This document shows, in pieces, positions 4,451 to 64,000 of a stretch of DNA of 64,000 nucleotides (the first letter of the stretch is position 1; each line of letters opens with the position of its first letter). The stretch spans positions 682,001 through 746,000 of the forward strand of contig NZ_WWEO01000045.1 of the NCBI RefSeq assembly GCF_009928685.1, written 5' to 3'. The notes under the pieces were generated by a model. It did no database searches and was not told the origin of the DNA. It saw only the letters and a list, made by a program, of their open reading frames with translations. A program made the translations under genes and the position numbers. The stretch comes from Mucilaginibacter agri. Lineage in GTDB: Bacteria; Bacteroidota; Bacteroidia; Sphingobacteriales; Sphingobacteriaceae.

Positions 4451-4599
4451 TAACAAACAAGTCATCGTCAAATAAGCTTAATACGATCGGGTGCTTAAAA
4501 GTATGCAAATCATTTTACACGCCCAACTAACAAGCTAAAATGAATATATAGTTACTACGATGTGCGCCAAAAAAAAGTTTTGGATAGCTATAATATATT

Positions 4600-4627
4600 T
4601 AAGGCCCGGCAATTTGCCGGGCCTTAA
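4600..4627 (-). terminator. Hairpin terminator after capD-like gene
   Basis: A nearly perfect inverted repeat with arms AAGGCCCGGCAA and TTGCCGGGCCTT, lying just after the stop of the CapD-like gene and before the TolC-like gene. On the minus strand it is followed by an A/T-rich stretch. It probably ends or attenuates the capD transcript and separates it from the four-gene unit downstream. Confidence 0.7.
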
Positions 4628-4650
4628 ACGCTCAAATTATATTAAAACTA

Positions 4651-7321: not shown

Positions 7322-7353
7322 AAAAAAGCCTGTAATTTTTACAGGCTTTTTTT
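7322..7353 (+). terminator. Intrinsic terminator after tRNA-Pro
   Basis: The arms AAAAGCCTGTAA and TTACAGGCTTTT enclose a three-base loop, followed by a T run. It lies 15 bases after the tRNA end. The long flanking A and T runs mean it can also act for transcripts from the minus-strand lipoprotein gene that ends at 7388. Confidence 0.85.
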
Positions 7354-13004: not shown

Positions 13005-13040
13005 AACATGCCCTCTTAAATATATTTAAGAGGGCATGTT
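13005..13040 (-). terminator. 36-bp perfect palindrome after susD
   Basis: Arms AACATGCCCTCTTAAATA and its exact complement form an uninterrupted palindrome. On the minus strand it is followed by TTTATT. It sits 22 bases after the susD stop and about 75 bases before the phosphoesterase start, so it most likely terminates the SusCD transcript. It may also be symmetrical enough to stop transcription from the other side. Confidence 0.75.
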
Positions 13041-39214: not shown

Positions 39215-41557
39215 ATGCGCATTAAATACGTACTCCTTATACTGTTTATCTTTTTAACAGCAACCTATCAGCGGAGTGATGCTCAGGCTGTTTCCCTTAG
39301 TAATATTCAGAATATTAAAGTCAATCAACTTACAGACGATCAGATAACTGCCGTTTGGAAAAAAATGCAGGACTCTGGTGTTTCCGAAGCCGAAGCTTAT
39401 AAGTTAATGGCACAAAAAGGATTGCCAGACGACCAAATTCAGGCATTTAAAGACAGGGTTACTTTGTTAGGCTTAAATTCTAAAACCAGCGCAAAAAAAG
39501 TTATTAGCAGAACAGAGAAAGAAAAAATAGATTATTCAAGAGATATCAACGATACTGTTCTTAAGCCAATAACAGTACCCGAAAAAATGCCAGCTGTTGC
39601 AGGTAATCAGCCACTACCTATCTACGGATTAGACTTTTTTAATCAGAGCACAATTAAATTTGAACCAAATTTTAATGTTGCAACCCCAAAAGGATACGTG
39701 ATAGGTCCCGGTGATGAACTTATTGTATTGATAACGGGACTGAATGAAAGTAGCGTACGTTCGAAAGTTACGCCAGAGGGTAATTTACAAATACCTTATG
39801 CCGGCATAGTGCATGTCAGTGGCCTAACTATAGATCAGGCTACTACAACTATCCGCGGTAAAATGGGCAAAATATATCCTGGTTTACGTAGCGGCCAAAC
39901 CCAGCTCAATGTTACTTTGGGCAACGTTCGCAGCATTAAGATCACCATTGTAGGCGAGGTTAAAACCCCGGGCTCATATACCATATCTTCTTTATCAACC
40001 CTTTACAATGCCTTATATAATTCGGGAGGACCAAGCGCCAATGGTTCATTAAGAAATATAGAGTTGATTCGTAATAACAAGGTTTACAAAACAATAGACT
40101 TTTATACGTTTTTGCAAAATGCGTTAATGGACGGTAACATTCGCCTTGAAGACCAGGATGTTATAAGAATACCTGTTTACAAAAAACGGGTTGGCATACA
40201 GGGTGAAGTTAAAAGACCTGCTATTTACGAACTTAAAGAGGGTGAACAACTGGACGATCTGGTTAGATACGCAGGTGGTTATACAGACATAGCTTATAAA
40301 GGAATAGCAAAAGTAGAACAAATTAGTGATTTAGAGCGTGATGTAAAGGATGTACCATCGAACCTGTTCAGCAACTTCACTCCGCGCAATGGCGATCTTG
40401 TAACGGTGGGTGCTATTACTAATCGCTACAGCAACCGTGTAGTATTGGAAGGCGCCGTATATCGCCCTGGCCCTTATGAACTTACCGCAGGTTTAACACT
40501 ATCATCATTATTAAAGCTTGCACAGGGATTAAAGCCCGAAGCATATATGGAACGCGGTTATATTAAAAGAACCCTCCCTAATCTCGAGCGGCAGTTTATT
40601 TCATTTAATCCGATGGATATTTTAGCGGGCAAAAATGATGTTCCGTTGTTACGTGAAGATACAGTAACCATACAGGAAGAAAGTTCATTCATTTCACAAC
40701 AAGTTGTGACTATAAATGGGCATGTTAGAAACCCTGCAAAATTTCTATACCGTAAGGGTATGAAACTGGCCGATGTAATTGCCATGGCCGGTGGATTTGA
40801 TGACCAGGCAGCCGAGCATCACGTAGAAGTTTCGCGCATTATTAAAAACAAAGAGGATAATGTAGCTAATCAACTTGTTAAGACCTTCGATATCAATATG
40901 ACCGGCGGCTCGAATAACGATATGGAGTTAGAACCAATGGACTACGTCTTTGTACAACGATTGGTAAACTACAGATCCTTAGGCAATGTAAGCGTGCAGG
41001 GTGAAGTATTATTCCCGGGAGATTATGCTGTACAACGCAGGGACGAAACAGCCCAGGACTTTTTACAACGTGCCGGTGGATTAACCCCTTACGGATCTAT
41101 ACAAAACGCTCAGGTATATAGAAAAGGTGTACGTGTAAATCTCGATCTAATGAATACAAGTCAGGATTCCCTGACTAAGGCCAGCATGATGCTTTTAGCA
41201 GGCGACAGTATATACATCCCCCGCGTTATCGCATTTGTTGAAGTTGCAGGCGCTGTGAATAATCCGCAGTTGATAAACTATAACGGACATAGCTTTATGT
41301 ATTATGTTAACGCGGCCGGCGGTAAAACTTCACACGCGCGTCTTAAAGGATCGTACATTAAATATCCCAATGGTTTAAATCAACCAATCCGTCATTTCTT
41401 GTTTTTCCGCAACTATCCTACTGTTAAACCTGGAAGCAAAATTATAGTACCCGAAAAAGATCCAGAATCAAGATTTAAACTTGGCGTAGGTGACATCACC
41501 GGCATTGCAACTGCTTTAACAGCGTTGATAAGTTTAATTGCCATACTGAAAAAGTAA
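39215..41557 (+). CDS. Wza-like polysaccharide export protein (SLBB domains)
   Basis: A 780-residue outer-membrane polysaccharide export protein. A signal peptide (ending S-D-A-Q-A) is followed by a short helical domain (about 30-85, with L-T-D-D-Q-I-T-A-V and G-L-P-D-D-Q). The export motif F-E-P-N-F-N-V-A-T-P-K-G-Y-V-I-G-P-G-D-E-L leads into the Poly_export domain (about 145-245). Several SLBB repeats follow (V-K-T-P-G-S-Y-T-I, V-K-R-P-A-I-Y-E-L, V-Y-R-P-G-P-Y-E-L, V-R-N-P-A-K-F, V-L-F-P-G-D-Y), and the C-terminus has a hydrophobic helix (about 755-778). It should form the channel that exports the polymer. There is no lipobox, unlike E. coli Wza. It is coupled to the Wzz-like gene one base downstream. 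Confidence 0.93.
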   Translation: MRIKYVLLILFIFLTATYQRSDAQAVSLSNIQNIKVNQLTDDQITAVWKKMQDSGVSEAEAYKLMAQKGLPDDQIQAFKDRVTLLGLNSKTSAKKVISRTEKEKIDYSRDINDTVLKPITVPEKMPAVAGNQPLPIYGLDFFNQSTIKFEPNFNVATPKGYVIGPGDELIVLITGLNESSVRSKVTPEGNLQIPYAGIVHVSGLTIDQATTTIRGKMGKIYPGLRSGQTQLNVTLGNVRSIKITIVGEVKTPGSYTISSLSTLYNALYNSGGPSANGSLRNIELIRNNKVYKTIDFYTFLQNALMDGNIRLEDQDVIRIPVYKKRVGIQGEVKRPAIYELKEGEQLDDLVRYAGGYTDIAYKGIAKVEQISDLERDVKDVPSNLFSNFTPRNGDLVTVGAITNRYSNRVVLEGAVYRPGPYELTAGLTLSSLLKLAQGLKPEAYMERGYIKRTLPNLERQFISFNPMDILAGKNDVPLLREDTVTIQEESSFISQQVVTINGHVRNPAKFLYRKGMKLADVIAMAGGFDDQAAEHHVEVSRIIKNKEDNVANQLVKTFDINMTGGSNNDMELEPMDYVFVQRLVNYRSLGNVSVQGEVLFPGDYAVQRRDETAQDFLQRAGGLTPYGSIQNAQVYRKGVRVNLDLMNTSQDSLTKASMMLLAGDSIYIPRVIAFVEVAGAVNNPQLINYNGHSFMYYVNAAGGKTSHARLKGSYIKYPNGLNQPIRHFLFFRNYPTVKPGSKIIVPEKDPESRFKLGVGDITGIATALTALISLIAILKK

Positions 41558-53900: not shown

Positions 53901-53910
53901 AACTTGCTTA

Positions 53911-53953
53911 TGAAAAACAACAAAGGCGCCATTGGCGCCTTTGTTGTTTTTCA
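53911..53953. terminator. Bidirectional terminator, 20-bp stem with 3-base loop
   Basis: Arms of about 20 bases (centre GGCGCC-ATT-GGCGCC, flanked by AACAACAAA / TTTGTTGTT) with A runs on one side and T runs on the other. It sits between two convergent genes, 10 bases after the permease stop and 8 bases from the phosphoesterase stop, and can end both transcripts. Confidence 0.92.
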
Positions 53954-53961
53954 TCTTTCGA

Positions 53962-58495: not shown

Positions 58496-59563
58496 GTGAA
58501 GAGTAAGTTTTACAGGCACCTTTTATTCTGGTTTGCCTATTGTATTCAGGGAACTTGGTTTGAATATGCATGGATACATGATATGTTCCCACCTAATAAA
58601 CATTGGCACGTTTGGGGCTTTGCCATTTTATTTAATTTGGCAGTTTTACCAGCTAAAATGGCCTTCTCGTACTATTTAATGAATTTTACGGTAAGCGATC
58701 TGCTAATTAAAAAAGAGCCGGTTTTTAAGGTGGTATGTAAAATTATAGTGGCTGCCATGGTGGCCATATTTATCTATCGTTTGGGTAGATACTACATTGT
58801 TAACCCATTATTATATCCTACCACCAAATACGTTTTCTCCGATAACCTGGGTGTTACCATTTTGCTATCAGCTATTTTCGATATTGGCTACGTGAGTGCG
58901 CTGGCCGTAGCTTTAAAGCTATTCAGGATGCAGATCCATCACCTAAAAAATGAGAAACACCTGGTGAAAGACAAGCTCGAAACGGAGCTAAAATTTTTGA
59001 AGAACCAGATCAACCCTCATTTTCTTTTTAATACGCTGAATAACATTTACGGTCTGGCTCGTAAAAAATCTGACCAGGCACCGGATGTGGTATTAAAGTT
59101 ATCTAAACTACTGCGGTTTATGCTTTACGAGTCGGGTAAGGATGCAATTACCATCTCGGAGGAATTGCGTATTCTGGAAGATTATGTTGAACTGGAAAGA
59201 ATCAGATACAACAACCGGCTGCAGATTTCATTTGAAAAGGAGATTGACAACTGCGACCAGAAAATTACCCCATTGATCCTGCTTCCTTTTGTTGAAAATG
59301 CCTTTAAACATGGACTGAGCGAAACTACGGGCAATACCAGCATAGCCATAAATGTAAGCTTAAAAGAAGGCTATTTAAACTTTAGCGTATACAACACACA
59401 GGATTATAATAACAATAGTGAAGTAACCGAGAAGATTGGATTAAGCAACGTAAGGCGACAATTAGAACTGATGTATAAACAGTTTTCGTTACAATTGCAT
59501 AACCTGTCTGATAGCTTTAACGTAAACCTTGAGGTAAATTTAAACAGCCATGGAACAATATAA
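58496..59563 (+). CDS. LytS-type sensor histidine kinase
   Basis: A membrane histidine kinase of the LytS/YehU family. The preferred start is GTG at 58496 (V-K-S-K-F-Y-R-H-L-L-F-W), which matches how these proteins begin; the frame also opens at GTG 58421, adding 25 hydrophobic residues of doubtful value. Four membrane segments precede a short coiled coil. The kinase core has the phospho-acceptor His in Q-I-N-P-H-F-L-F-N-T-L-N-N (about residue 175), the D-Y-V-E-L-E-R-I-R-Y motif, and P-F-V-E-N-A-F-K-H-G as N box. It overlaps the response-regulator gene by 14 bases, an obligate pair. Confidence 0.92.
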   Translation: MKSKFYRHLLFWFAYCIQGTWFEYAWIHDMFPPNKHWHVWGFAILFNLAVLPAKMAFSYYLMNFTVSDLLIKKEPVFKVVCKIIVAAMVAIFIYRLGRYYIVNPLLYPTTKYVFSDNLGVTILLSAIFDIGYVSALAVALKLFRMQIHHLKNEKHLVKDKLETELKFLKNQINPHFLFNTLNNIYGLARKKSDQAPDVVLKLSKLLRFMLYESGKDAITISEELRILEDYVELERIRYNNRLQISFEKEIDNCDQKITPLILLPFVENAFKHGLSETTGNTSIAINVSLKEGYLNFSVYNTQDYNNNSEVTEKIGLSNVRRQLELMYKQFSLQLHNLSDSFNVNLEVNLNSHGTI

Positions 59564-60266
59564 CTGCATCATTATTGAAGATGAGCCGCTTGCTGCCGAG
59601 ATTTTGCAGGATTATATTGCCGATATACCATTTTTGTCGTTAAAAAAAACTTATAGCGATGCCATCCATGCGCTCGACGACCTGCGCTCCAACGATATTG
59701 ATCTCATTTTTTTAGATATCAATTTACCTAAGCTAAAAGGGCTCGAGTTTATTCAAACACTCAAAAACCCGCCGCATATTATTATCACTACTGCCTACCA
59801 CGAATATGCCTTGCAGGGTTACGACCTGAATATTGTAGATTACCTGTTAAAGCCCATTGAGTTCAGCAGATTTTTACGGGCAATTAATAAGCTTAAATTG
59901 CTTGCCTCGGCCAAAACGGTAGCCTCATCGGTGTACATTCCTGGCAGCAAGGATTATATGTTTGTTAACACCGGTAAAAAAAAGGTTAAGATCCATTTTC
60001 AGGATATACTTTACATTGAGAGCCTAAAAGAATATGTGCGCATTTTTACCGCGGATAAAACGGTTACTACCAAATTTCAACTAGGTCAAATAGAGGCTCA
60101 ATTACCAAAATCAGAGTTTCTGCGTATCCATCGCTCTTTTATGATAGCCAAAGAAAAAATCGATGCCTATACCAGCACCGATGTAGAAATTGGAACGAAA
60201 CAACTTCCTATAGGCAGAAGCTACAAAGAACTCGTAATGAACATCTTAGAACACAGCGAAAAGTAA
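59550..60266 (+). CDS. LytTR-family response regulator
   Basis: A 238-residue response regulator. The receiver domain (about 5-120) has the acidic pair E10-D11, phospho-acceptor D56 in F-L-D-I-N-L-P, a Thr in T-T-A-Y, and the late lysine in L-L-K-P-I. A LytTR DNA-binding domain follows (about 135-235) with I-L-Y-I-E-S-L-K-E-Y-V-R-I and F-L-R-I-H-R-S-F-M-I-A. It is phosphorylated by the kinase encoded just upstream. The target genes are unknown; the flanking operons are candidates. Confidence 0.94.
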   Translation: MEQYNCIIIEDEPLAAEILQDYIADIPFLSLKKTYSDAIHALDDLRSNDIDLIFLDINLPKLKGLEFIQTLKNPPHIIITTAYHEYALQGYDLNIVDYLLKPIEFSRFLRAINKLKLLASAKTVASSVYIPGSKDYMFVNTGKKKVKIHFQDILYIESLKEYVRIFTADKTVTTKFQLGQIEAQLPKSEFLRIHRSFMIAKEKIDAYTSTDVEIGTKQLPIGRSYKELVMNILEHSEK

Positions 60267-60352
60267 CAAACCTTCGTCTCGCTTTTCCACTTTCATCCCA
60301 AACAAAATAAATCGGTGATAATATTTTGAATTGTCGCGATTAATTAGACTTT

Positions 60353-60390
60353 TGTATAAAAATACTATGCATGCATAGTATTTTTATACA
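60353..60390. promoter_or_regulatory. 38-bp perfect palindrome upstream of leucine-catabolism operon
   Basis: The half TGTATAAAAATACTATGCA (60353-60371) is followed directly by its exact complement. The centre is ATGCATGCAT. It lies 87 bases after the response-regulator stop and 56 bases before the mccB start. The AT-rich symmetry without a T run beyond the stem fits an operator for a dimeric repressor at least as well as a terminator. Which of the two it is cannot be decided from sequence. Confidence 0.65.
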
Positions 60391-60445
60391 GCAACCGAAC
60401 ACTTTCGACTGTAAACCAATTATATACTTAGTATAAACTTCTTCT

Positions 60446-62041
60446 ATGGATACACTACTGAAGGACTTGGCCAGCAGGCTACAGACCGTTAAGCTTGGTG
60501 GCGGACTAAAGAAAATTGAGGCGCACCAAAAAAAGGGCAAGCTAACTGCAAGGGAAAGAATAGATTATTTAATTGATCCCGGAACCGAGCTGTTAGAAGT
60601 TGGTGCTTTTGCAGGCGACGGTATGTATGCAGAAGAAGGAGGCTGCCCAGGCGGCGGCGTGGTAACCGTTATGGGCTATGTTGCGAAACGAATGTGCGTT
60701 ATCGTATCAAACGATGCTACCGTTAAGGCCGGCGCATGGTTTCCCATTACGGCTAAGAAAATATTACGCGCACAGGAAATAGCCATGGAAAACCATTTAC
60801 CAATTATTTATCTGGTAGATAGTGCCGGTGTTTATTTGCCGCTGCAGGATGAGGTATTTCCTGATAAAGAGCACTTTGGCCGCATATTTCGCAACAATGC
60901 AAAAATGTCGTCGATGGGTGTTGTGCAGGTTTCGGCTATTATGGGCAGTTGTGTAGCGGGCGGGGCATATTTACCCATTATGTCTGATTATGCCTTTATC
61001 GTAGAGGGAACCGGATCGGTGTTTTTGGCCGGATCGTATCTGGTAAAATCGTCCATTGGCGAAGAGGTAGATAATGAGACGCTCGGCGGTGCAAGTACCC
61101 ATTCAGAGATCTCGGGTGTAACAGACAACAAATATCCCGATGAGGCCTCCTGTTTGGATGCGATACGTAACGTGTTTGATAAGTTAGGACATCAAAATAC
61201 CTCGGGTTTCGATCGCGTAGCCCCTTTTCCACCTAAAAAAGATCCCGAAGAAATTTCGACGATATTACCGCAAGACCGCACCAAGCCTTATGATATGCTG
61301 GAGATTATTGACCGATTGGTCGACAACTCCGAATTTGAGCAATACAAAGAACTTTATGGTCAAACACTGCTCTGTGGCTTGGCACGCATCAACGGCTGGG
61401 CTGTTGGTATTGTAGCTAACCAGCGCAAAGTAGTAAAATCTAAAAAAGGCGAAATGCAAATGGGTGGCGTTATCTACTCAGACTCGGCAGACAAGGCGGC
61501 CCGTTTTATTATGAACTGCAATCAGCAAAAGATCCCGCTGGTGTTTTTGCAGGATGTATCCGGATTTATGGTGGGCAGCCGGTCTGAGCATGGCGGCATT
61601 ATTAAAGATGGTGCCAAAATGGTATCGGCTATGGCTAATTCAGTTGTTCCCAAGTTCACTTTTATTATCGGTAACTCCTATGGCGCAGGCAACTATGCCA
61701 TGTGCGGTAAGGCTTATGACCCGAGATTGATCTACTTGTGGGTAACCGGGCAAATGGCCGTTATGAGTGGGGCATCTGCCGGTAAAACTTTACTACAGAT
61801 ACAAGAAGCAGCGCTAAAATCTAAGGGCGTTGAGATTAGTACGGAACAAGAAAAGGCTTTACTGGATAAGATCACTAATAAATACAACGAACAATTGAGC
61901 CCATACTACGCCGCAGCACGGCTTTGGGTAGATGGTGTAATTGATCCGTTGGAAACCCGGAAGATTATCTCAATGGGTATCGAAGCGGCTAATCATGCAC
62001 CCATAACCGAACGATATAATGTGGGTGTGATTCAAACTTAA
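60446..62041 (+). CDS. mccB: Methylcrotonyl-CoA carboxylase, carboxyltransferase (beta) subunit
   Basis: A 531-residue biotin-dependent acyl-CoA carboxylase beta chain that moves CO2 from carboxybiotin to 3-methylcrotonyl-CoA in leucine breakdown. The N-terminal half has T-A-R-E-R-I, L-V-D-S-A-G-V-Y-L-P-L-Q-D-E-V-F-P-D, H-F-G-R-I-F-R-N-N-A-K-M-S and G-S-C-V-A-G-G-A-Y-L-P-I-M-S-D. The C-terminal half has F-L-Q-D-V-S-G-F-M-V-G and G-N-S-Y-G-A-G-N-Y-A-M-C-G. The L-P-x-Q-x-E-V-F-P-D and F-x-N-x-A-x-M-S wording is that of MCC rather than propionyl-CoA carboxylase. The biotin-carrying alpha chain is not adjacent. The operon context (acyl-CoA dehydrogenase, HMG-CoA lyase) supports the call. Confidence 0.93.
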   Translation: MDTLLKDLASRLQTVKLGGGLKKIEAHQKKGKLTARERIDYLIDPGTELLEVGAFAGDGMYAEEGGCPGGGVVTVMGYVAKRMCVIVSNDATVKAGAWFPITAKKILRAQEIAMENHLPIIYLVDSAGVYLPLQDEVFPDKEHFGRIFRNNAKMSSMGVVQVSAIMGSCVAGGAYLPIMSDYAFIVEGTGSVFLAGSYLVKSSIGEEVDNETLGGASTHSEISGVTDNKYPDEASCLDAIRNVFDKLGHQNTSGFDRVAPFPPKKDPEEISTILPQDRTKPYDMLEIIDRLVDNSEFEQYKELYGQTLLCGLARINGWAVGIVANQRKVVKSKKGEMQMGGVIYSDSADKAARFIMNCNQQKIPLVFLQDVSGFMVGSRSEHGGIIKDGAKMVSAMANSVVPKFTFIIGNSYGAGNYAMCGKAYDPRLIYLWVTGQMAVMSGASAGKTLLQIQEAALKSKGVEISTEQEKALLDKITNKYNEQLSPYYAAARLWVDGVIDPLETRKIISMGIEAANHAPITERYNVGVIQT

Positions 62042-62094: not shown

Positions 62095-63252
62095 ATGAAT
62101 ACCGACACGATAGATGAACAATTAGCGCTGATTAAACATAGCGCTAAAGACTTTGCCGAAACCTACATCCGTCCGCATGTAATGGAGTGGGACGAGCAAC
62201 AGGTATTCCCGGTAGACTTGTTCCGCAAACTGGGCGAACATGGTTTTATGGGTGTACTTGTGCCCGAAGCCTATGGTGGTTCGGGACTCGATTACCAAGC
62301 GTACATCAGCATCCTTGATGAAATCTCGCAGGTATGCGGATCGATAGGGTTATCGGTTGCGGCGCATAATTCATTATGCACCAATCATTTGTTAACGTTT
62401 GGTACCGAGGCACAGAAAAACAAATATCTCCCCTTACTGGCTTCGGGGCAATGGATAGGTGCATGGGGTTTAACAGAAACGGGGACTGGCTCTGATGCAG
62501 GGGGCATGAAAACCACTGCCGTGTTAGACGGTGATGAATGGATTATAAACGGATCGAAAAACTTTATTACACATGCCATCAGTGGCGACGTAGCCGTGGT
62601 AATAGCCCGTACAGGTAAAAAAGGCGATTCGCATGCTATGAGTGCTTTTGTTATTGAGAAGGGAACTCCCGGCTTTACCGCAGGAAAAAAGGAAAATAAA
62701 TTGGGAATGCGCGCATCCGAAACGGCGTGTCTGTTTTTCGACAACTGCCGGATACCAAAAGAAAACATTTTGGGTGCGGTTGGCGACGGATTTATCCAAT
62801 CTTTAAAAGTGTTGGACGGTGGCCGCATCTCTATAGCTGCACTCTCATTAGGTATTGCTAAAGGCGCTTACTTGGCTGCCATTAAATACGCCAAAGCGCG
62901 CGAACAATTCGGCAAACCTATTGCGCAATTTCAGGCTATTGGCTTTAAACTGGCTGATATGGCGACTAAAATTGAAGCATCAGAACTATTAATCCGCCAG
63001 GCAGGGCATCTGAAAGACCGGGGCGAGAAGGTGACTAAGCTATCTGCCATGGCCAAATATTATGCATCTGAAGCATGTGTCGAGATTGCCAATGAAGCGG
63101 TACAGATTCATGGTGGTTATGGTTACACTAAAGATTATCCGGCCGAAAAGTACTATCGCGACGCTAAACTATGCACCATTGGTGAGGGTACATCGGAGAT
63201 CCAGAAAATTGTAATTTCGAGAATAATAATGGAAGAAGCCCTGTTTGTATGA
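62095..63252 (+). CDS. Acyl-CoA dehydrogenase, probable branched-chain (isovaleryl-CoA) substrate
   Basis: A 385-residue FAD enzyme of the acyl-CoA dehydrogenase family. The N-terminal helical domain and middle domain (W-G-L-T-E-T-G-T-G-S-D-A-G near 123, with N-F-I-T-H-A) are intact. The C-terminal part has R-E-Q-F-G-K-P-I, Q-I-H-G-G-Y-G-Y-T-K-D-Y and G363-E364-G-T-S-E-I-Q. E364 is at the catalytic-base position of short/medium-chain enzymes; orthodox isovaleryl-CoA dehydrogenases carry a small residue there and have their base on another helix. Position between mccB and HMG-CoA lyase still points to isovaleryl-CoA. The gene starts 53 bases after mccB and overlaps the lyase start (ATGA). Confidence 0.92.
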   Translation: MNTDTIDEQLALIKHSAKDFAETYIRPHVMEWDEQQVFPVDLFRKLGEHGFMGVLVPEAYGGSGLDYQAYISILDEISQVCGSIGLSVAAHNSLCTNHLLTFGTEAQKNKYLPLLASGQWIGAWGLTETGTGSDAGGMKTTAVLDGDEWIINGSKNFITHAISGDVAVVIARTGKKGDSHAMSAFVIEKGTPGFTAGKKENKLGMRASETACLFFDNCRIPKENILGAVGDGFIQSLKVLDGGRISIAALSLGIAKGAYLAAIKYAKAREQFGKPIAQFQAIGFKLADMATKIEASELLIRQAGHLKDRGEKVTKLSAMAKYYASEACVEIANEAVQIHGGYGYTKDYPAEKYYRDAKLCTIGEGTSEIQKIVISRIIMEEALFV

Positions 63253-64000
63253 AACTGATAGAATGCCCCCGGGATGCCATACAGGGCATCAAGCACTTTA
63301 TCCCAACAGAGGCGAAAGTTCAGTACATTAATCAATTACTAACAGCAGGTTTCGACACAATAGATTTTGGAAGCTTTGTATCGCCCAAAATGGTACCTCA
63401 AATGGCTGATACGGCCGAGGTGCTCCGCATGCTTGATCTTTCTTCTACCAAATCAAAGCTTCTCGCCATTGTAGCTAATGAACGTGGTGCTCTGGATGCT
63501 TGTTCATTTGAAGAGATAGCCTGCCTCGGTTACCCATTTTCTATTTCTGAAGCCTTTCAATTAAGAAATACAGGTTCTACCATCGCAGAATCGTTAGATC
63601 GCGTTAAGGTCATTCAAGAGCTTTGCGCCAAACATAACAAGCAACTGGTGATTTATATCTCTATGGGCTTTGGCAACCCCTATGGCGAGGAATGGAACAG
63701 CGAGATTGCCCTCAAGTGGGTTGATGTCCTGAACCAATTGGGCATTAAGACATTTTCACTAGCTGATACTGTGGGAGTTGCCAATCCTCAAAGTATTAGC
63801 TACCTGTTCGGCAACCTCATACCAACTTATCCGCATTTAGAATTTGGAGCACACCTGCATACCACACCCAATACCTGGAAAGAAAAGTTGGAGGCGGCGT
63901 GGCTGGCGGGCTGCCGCAGGTTCGACGGCGCTATAATGGGATATGGTGGTTGCCCTATGGCAAGCGACCAATTAGTGGGCAATATGGCCACAGAAAACCT
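63249..64000 (+). CDS. Hydroxymethylglutaryl-CoA lyase, N-terminal part, cut by window edge
   Basis: The frame starts at the ATG that overlaps the stop of the dehydrogenase (ATGA) and stays open to the right edge, giving 250 residues. It cleaves HMG-CoA to acetoacetate and acetyl-CoA, the last step of leucine breakdown. Visible motifs are E-C-P-R-D-A-I-Q-G near the N-terminus (the DRE-TIM R-D pair), D-F-G-S-F-V-S-P-K-M-V-P-Q-M near 38-51, A-D-T-V-G-V near 175, H-L-H-T-T-P as metal-binding histidines, and G-G-C-P-M-A near 235, which holds the active-site loop cysteine. Family length is about 290-300, so only the last 40-50 residues are missing. Confidence 0.93.
   Translation, partial: MKLIECPRDAIQGIKHFIPTEAKVQYINQLLTAGFDTIDFGSFVSPKMVPQMADTAEVLRMLDLSSTKSKLLAIVANERGALDACSFEEIACLGYPFSISEAFQLRNTGSTIAESLDRVKVIQELCAKHNKQLVIYISMGFGNPYGEEWNSEIALKWVDVLNQLGIKTFSLADTVGVANPQSISYLFGNLIPTYPHLEFGAHLHTTPNTWKEKLEAAWLAGCRRFDGAIMGYGGCPMASDQLVGNMATEN

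Follow-up and report, generated by a model that had tools for sequence, protein, structure and literature searches.

A perfect 38-bp palindrome before an mccB-like operon: a probable operator of a MarR-family repressor of acyl-CoA oxidation genes

The 179-bp gap between a histidine kinase-LytTR gene pair and an mccB-like operon contains one perfect palindrome, which raises the question of what this palindrome does and which protein might recognize it. In the window, the whole stretch of 64,000 nucleotides analysed here, its two 19-nt arms (60353-60371 and 60372-60390) show 100% complementarity without a spacer around the center ATGCATGCAT, confirming the perfect 38-bp palindrome with two exactly complementary 19-base halves that the sequence-only reading had claimed. 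By a simple composition estimate, perfect arms of at least 19 bases are expected about 4.5e-7 times per 64 kb at the composition of the window and 2.4e-6 times at the A+T content of the mccB intergenic gap; the palindrome is far beyond chance, and chance does not explain it. A search for the full 38-mer with up to three mismatches in the 5.6-Mb genome (45 contigs) found no second copy. The coordinates of the features are collected in Table 1.

Table 1. Features of the palindrome, its neighboring genes, the putative promoter and the MarR-family gene.
Feature	Coordinates	Strand	Evidence
Perfect 38-bp palindrome, whole feature	60353..60390	.	Arm pairing, chance estimate, single-copy search
Conserved operator core TATGCATGCATA (pattern TATGCNNGCATA)	60366..60377	.	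Recurrence in own genome and relatives
Extended 16-mer core ACTATGCATGCATAGT	60364-60379	.	Same site as TATGCATGCATA
Putative -33 element TTG	60326..60328	+	18 nt before -7 box; promoter consensus
Putative -7 element GACTTTTG, 5/6 vs TANNTTTG	60347..60354	+	Score 8/9; 9/132 control windows reach 8
LytTR response regulator, upstream neighbor, not counted in the switch	59550..60266	+	ORF and protein-family matches
mccB-like acyl-CoA carboxyltransferase, first operon gene	60446..62041	+	ORF and protein-family matches
Acyl-CoA dehydrogenase, second gene	62095..63252	+	ORF and protein-family matches
HMG-CoA lyase-like, third gene, continues beyond window	63249..63998	+	ORF and protein-family matches
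MarR-family gene, locus L092, outside window	G000:C17:762824-763249		Homology and Pfam

There are 55 bases between the end of the palindrome and the ATG of mccB. The second gene of the operon probably encodes an isovaleryl-CoA dehydrogenase, the substrate being suggested by the gene context, and an enoyl-CoA-hydratase-like gene, named by eye, lies 3' of the HMG-CoA lyase-like gene just past the end of the window. Among the reading frames examined at the mccB operon, no mccA was seen. The mccB leader also contains a second small palindrome, TATACTTAGTATA, at 60423-60435, just 5' of the start codon. Other long palindromes of similar length in the window (53910-53954 and 13005-13040) have arms with G+C-rich blocks, and further long inverted repeats with G+C-containing arms are located at 4598-4628 and 7322-7352; all four are probably ordinary or bidirectional terminators.

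With up to two mismatches, the 16-bp core occurs at four places in the same genome, compared with one for the reversed control, and these places are situated before mccB in the window and before genes for an acyl-CoA dehydrogenase, an IcmF-type isobutyryl-CoA mutase and IlvD. The form YTATGCRYGCATAR without mismatch adds a site before a CcmC-like gene; with one mismatch it shows no excess in this genome (9 matches vs 15 for the control), and these extra matches were not used. Exact TATGCNNGCATA has 14 matches in the genome, against 5 for the reversed pattern. Seven of them are assigned, to mccB, the acyl-CoA dehydrogenase, IcmF, IlvD, the CcmC-like gene, a MarR gene and the gap between an FAH-family and a homogentisate-dioxygenase-like gene (both named by eye), while six are inside longer reading frames and one (L185) has no assigned target. 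In the gap (L190), TATGCTTGCATA stands between the two divergent genes, and from this site tyrosine breakdown may belong to the regulon. Within the window, the relaxed core with at most one mismatch shows no excess (3 matches vs 3.4 expected); TATGCCGGCATA at 39797-39808, within a long reading frame, is probably a chance match. The genome has an EtfD-like gene towards the end of an ETF-FadB-FadA-FadE-FadD-type operon (by eye), and no site with up to two mismatches was found before the first gene or fadB of this operon (L242 4872-18922), nor was a clear operator site found for the thiolase gene.

The core is frequent in relatives. We counted 74 sites of AYTATGCRYGCATART in 37 same-genus genomes, the own genome included, with at least one site in 34 of the 37, and another 4 in 23 genomes from other families, while the reversed-pattern control gave 1 in all 60 genomes; these totals are hand sums from the per-genome table, and the orthologous sites among the counts are not independent events. 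The sites covered, of the 78, are 69 in 68 loci of relatives, plus three each in the own genome and before mccB. Among the 69 listed sites of relatives, 59 are no more than 100 bp away from the start of an acyl-CoA-oxidation gene. The targets are an EtfD-like Fe-S protein (24), acyl-CoA dehydrogenase (17), thiolase (9), IcmF (6), MarR (2), and SCOT, ETF beta, SDR and IlvD (1 each), as well as pstS (3); SCOT, ETF and pstS were named by eye and the other targets by BLAST against Pfam/NCBIfam-typed proteins. Four sites have no assigned target; one of them (L071), at the end of a contig, shares its flanks with L222 in the same genome. Residues 10-334 of the EtfD-like protein match the iron-sulfur-binding reductase 9ojn (6e-43), which is taken to be the mycobacterial EtfD of PMC13083937, judging from the accessible part of that paper. 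Among the 24 mccB loci fetched from the genus, five (own, L013, L027, L028 and L030) have an exact core upstream of the gene, and L008 has a one-mismatch form; with so few exact cores, mccB appears to be an optional target. In two genomes (L192 and L066), the core lies 250-280 bp upstream of ilvD, a gene of branched-chain synthesis, which is odd for a catabolic repressor. The gene of a pstS-like phosphate-binding protein is preceded by an operator in three genomes (L199, L216 and L231, by eye). The recurrence before other catabolic genes on which the sequence-only reading had made its operator depend was thus found for a core of 12-18 bp; the conserved unit is neither the 38-mer nor the 19-base half-site that it had suggested as a search key.

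Outside the core, the arms behave differently. Across 73 distinct sites, the bases beyond the core pair at most offsets about as often as expected from shuffled partners, and the idea that the flanks generally belong to the operator was rejected. Arms of at least 12 bases occur at 9 of the 73 sites against 6.9 expected, arms of at least 15 at 5 against 0.9, two of these five (L201 and L209) being near-identical orthologous sites, and arms of 19 at 2 against 0.25. Arms of 18-19 bases are found at a few sites, the window site, L060 and the near-identical L201/L209, with three different arm sequences; the other sites share only the core, and their arm sequences vary. Either extra protein contacts or the repair of an imperfect palindrome by template switching could produce such long arms. 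Mobile palindromic elements and replication/recombination sites typically have perfect arms, as does the palindrome here; we nevertheless give this explanation practically no weight, as the palindrome is single-copy at three mismatches and only the core is kept from site to site.

The position of the core relative to the promoter is informative at some of the sites. The Bacteroidota promoter consensus is TTG / TANNTTTG. In the window, 11 bases separate the TTG-N18-GACTTTTG pair from the core, and the last two bases of the pair are already part of the palindrome, which would place the transcription start at about 60360, inside the palindrome. Pairs scoring 8-9 of 9 were found at 18 of 68 promoters compared with 9 of 132 control windows, whereas scores of 6-7 are as common in control windows and only 8-9 are informative. 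These 18 promoters are 17 EtfD-like sites, which are mutually orthologous, and the window site; the 68 promoters scored revealed no such pair at the dehydrogenase, thiolase, IcmF or other mccB sites. For 23 of the 24 EtfD-like promoters, 8-12 bases separate the end of the best pair from the core, and a distance of 6 bases between core center and start codon is seen at most of the 24. A core directly before the start codon of EtfD-like genes, where a terminator makes no sense, argues against the view that the kinase-LytTR transcript ends here at a rho-independent terminator, possibly one working in both directions. The palindrome RNA does fold at -17.8 kcal/mol (z -6.6), the palindrome follows the LytTR stop codon after 86 bases, and a shorter inner hairpin would have a U run after it. 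However, the terminator scan left the palindrome unflagged, and the stem is A+T-rich with its T's within the full stem, instead of a G+C-rich stem followed by a T-tract. The terminator of the LytTR gene that the sequence-only reading had offered as its second option is therefore not supported, and we regard it as very improbable. Binding by the adjacent LytTR regulator is scarcely credible: its gene adjoins the site, but LytTR proteins bind direct repeats, which mismatches a perfect palindrome, and the core recurs where the neighboring genes examined are acyl-CoA genes.

A MarR-family protein encoded elsewhere in the genome (L092) is the best candidate for the partner of the core. It contains the Pfam PF01047 MarR domain (38.0 bits vs a cut-off of 24.6) and has profile matches to solved MarR proteins, the CouR entry 6c28 among them. 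The model of the homologue at L104 (not of L092 itself) adopts the MarR fold, a winged helix with a beta hairpin and long terminal helices (pLDDT 93.4), and its best 50 fold matches are all MarR-type regulators by title, with MepR entries, including a MepR-DNA complex, at the top. All 15 matches to named NCBIfam MarR subfamilies (BilQ, SlyA, HpaR, FabT, OhrR and others) are far below the curated cut-off, and the best of them, BilQ, reaches 52.8 of the 125 bits required. The L092 protein contains no cysteine from the first ATG on, and cysteine is also absent in 42 of 56 homologues, which argues against a thiol redox sensor and makes a metabolite ligand the likelier signal. A thiol-based redox MarR of the OhrR type was rejected on the missing reactive cysteine. 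At an E value of 1e-10, the MarR-like protein of G057 has a match in 47 of 60 genomes, the own genome included, in single copy in 46 of the 47 and in two copies in G045; a profile search of 149 genomes of the class gave matches in 74, a single one in 67 of these.

The strongest support for a link between this protein and the site, as judged from sequence conservation, is the occurrence of TATGCNNGCATA at MarR promoters beside fadB. A scan of named genomes for a FadB-like neighbor gave 80 loci, 56 of them with a MarR gene. For the FadB-like protein of L086, from a genome of the same genus, the nearest named relative was in a Mucilaginibacter MAG (90%), followed by Flavihumibacter, Pedobacter, Daejeonella and Sphingobacterium, which places the window in the Sphingobacteriaceae and probably in Mucilaginibacter. 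From 160 bp upstream to 20 bp downstream of the MarR gene start, exact TATGCNNGCATA is present in 48 of these 56 Bacteroidota loci and a form within one mismatch in 53, while the reversed pattern within one mismatch is found in 0 of 56, and 1120 mononucleotide shuffles of the promoters gave 0 exact matches and 8 with one mismatch. At L193/L092 of the own genome, the core TATGCATGCATA contains the first ATG of the MarR frame. A tandem pair of cores in G057, a genome of another family, is followed by a 150-aa MarR-like gene and then by a 3-hydroxyacyl-CoA dehydrogenase gene. With the core recurring both before other catabolic genes and at Bacteroidota MarR promoters, the initial idea of an operator for a dimeric regulator is supported.

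The same operator might instead be read by another dimeric regulator, such as a TetR- or MerR-type analogue of LiuQ or LiuR, with the MarR gene merely sharing the site. There is a precedent in Proteobacteria, where LiuR (MerR) or LiuQ (TetR) controls the genes for branched-chain amino acids, as given in the accessible part of PMC5343134. In addition, the genus of the window has lost the core at most MarR promoters and kept it at catabolic genes; an exact core is present in only 4 of the 19 same-genus MarR promoters fetched (own, L086, L099 and L100), and L094 has a core with a single mismatch. On the other hand, the strong conservation at MarR promoters across Bacteroidota speaks against another regulator, as do the doubled cores at the MarR promoters of L074, L077, L086, L099 and L100 and the lack of any other regulator gene among the nearest genes of the 69 listed sites. 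We consider another regulator unlikely. The MarR gene heads the fadB operon in L086, L099 and L100, but not in the own genome. In 149 genomes, counts of the W-flanked relaxed motif separate MarR-bearing genomes (107 vs 31 for the control) from MarR-lacking ones (71 vs 51) only modestly. The missing sites at this genome's ETF/EtfD operon and thiolase gene and the lack of an exact core at 15 of 19 same-genus MarR promoters, along with the slight excess of the relaxed motif in genomes without the MarR gene, indicate either that the regulon drifts between lineages or that the motif is too strict.

We return to the MarR protein as the likely reader of the core. On the sequence evidence, the palindrome is very probably the operator of a MarR-family repressor, presumably autoregulated, that would block transcription initiation of acyl-CoA-oxidation genes. 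A homodimer of the winged-helix protein (L092) would bind the core TATGCATGCATA, which appears to overlie or just follow the transcription start of the mccB-acyl-CoA dehydrogenase-HMG-CoA lyase-enoyl-CoA hydratase operon. The bound dimer would cover the start and keep RNA polymerase from initiating, a repression by occlusion, and the protein would similarly repress its own gene and further acyl-CoA genes. Once acyl-CoA intermediates accumulate, the dimer would be released by a ligand; by the gene set and the CouR precedent, this ligand is most likely an acyl-CoA thioester.

FadR, one of the known regulators of such pathways, belongs to the GntR family. CouR is a repressor of the MarR family with known structures in complex with p-coumaroyl-CoA and with DNA, and the entries 5cyv (with p-coumaroyl-CoA) and 6c2s (with DNA) are among the fold matches of the L104 model. 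The MarR fold is common to both, and CouR serves as a precedent for a CoA-thioester ligand, although other proteins match more closely in both sequence and fold. MepR of Staphylococcus aureus, also of the MarR family, is the top fold match (TM 0.81-0.84, the DNA complex 4lln included) with 24-26% identity, but its entry titles link it to a multidrug pump and not to catabolism. In the case of LiuR and LiuQ of Proteobacteria, the accessible part of PMC5343134 likewise describes a dedicated regulator of branched-chain amino acid breakdown genes. The present system is set apart from them by phylum and family: their regulons have a MerR or TetR regulator, whereas the regulator linked here is of the MarR family. 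FadR, PsrA and FadP, in the same source, likewise place one regulator over fatty-acid breakdown genes, PsrA and FadP being TetR-family proteins of Proteobacteria. These are regulons of Proteobacteria under GntR- or TetR-family regulators, compared with a MarR protein in Bacteroidota here. In what it does and how it would work, the proposed system is of a familiar type, comparable to the proteobacterial LiuR, PsrA and FadR regulons in the accessible part of PMC5343134.

No earlier description of this MarR family, motif or regulon was found in the literature searched, subscription journals being mostly outside it. RegPrecise 3.0, according to the accessible part of PMC3840689, covers the phylum Bacteroidetes/Bacteroidota through 11 Bacteroidaceae genomes. 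A wider reading, which we put forward tentatively and would rate, as a whole, at somewhat below an even chance, is that one MarR protein is a phylum-wide acyl-CoA switch of Bacteroidota acting via TATGCNNGCATA operators and sensing acyl-CoA thioesters. As part of the same joint reading, it would tie the ETF/EtfD electron gate to the breakdown of branched-chain amino acids, fatty acids, ketone bodies and perhaps tyrosine, in some lineages it would also reach ilvD and pstS, and at a few sites, the mccB one among them, the operator would have extended to a perfect palindrome of 36-38 bp that may seat extra dimers. If the MarR operator reading is right, it identifies which regulator acts through which site on which genes when Bacteroidota switch on the oxidation of branched-chain amino acids and fatty acids, and the question would be testable with one protein and one short duplex.
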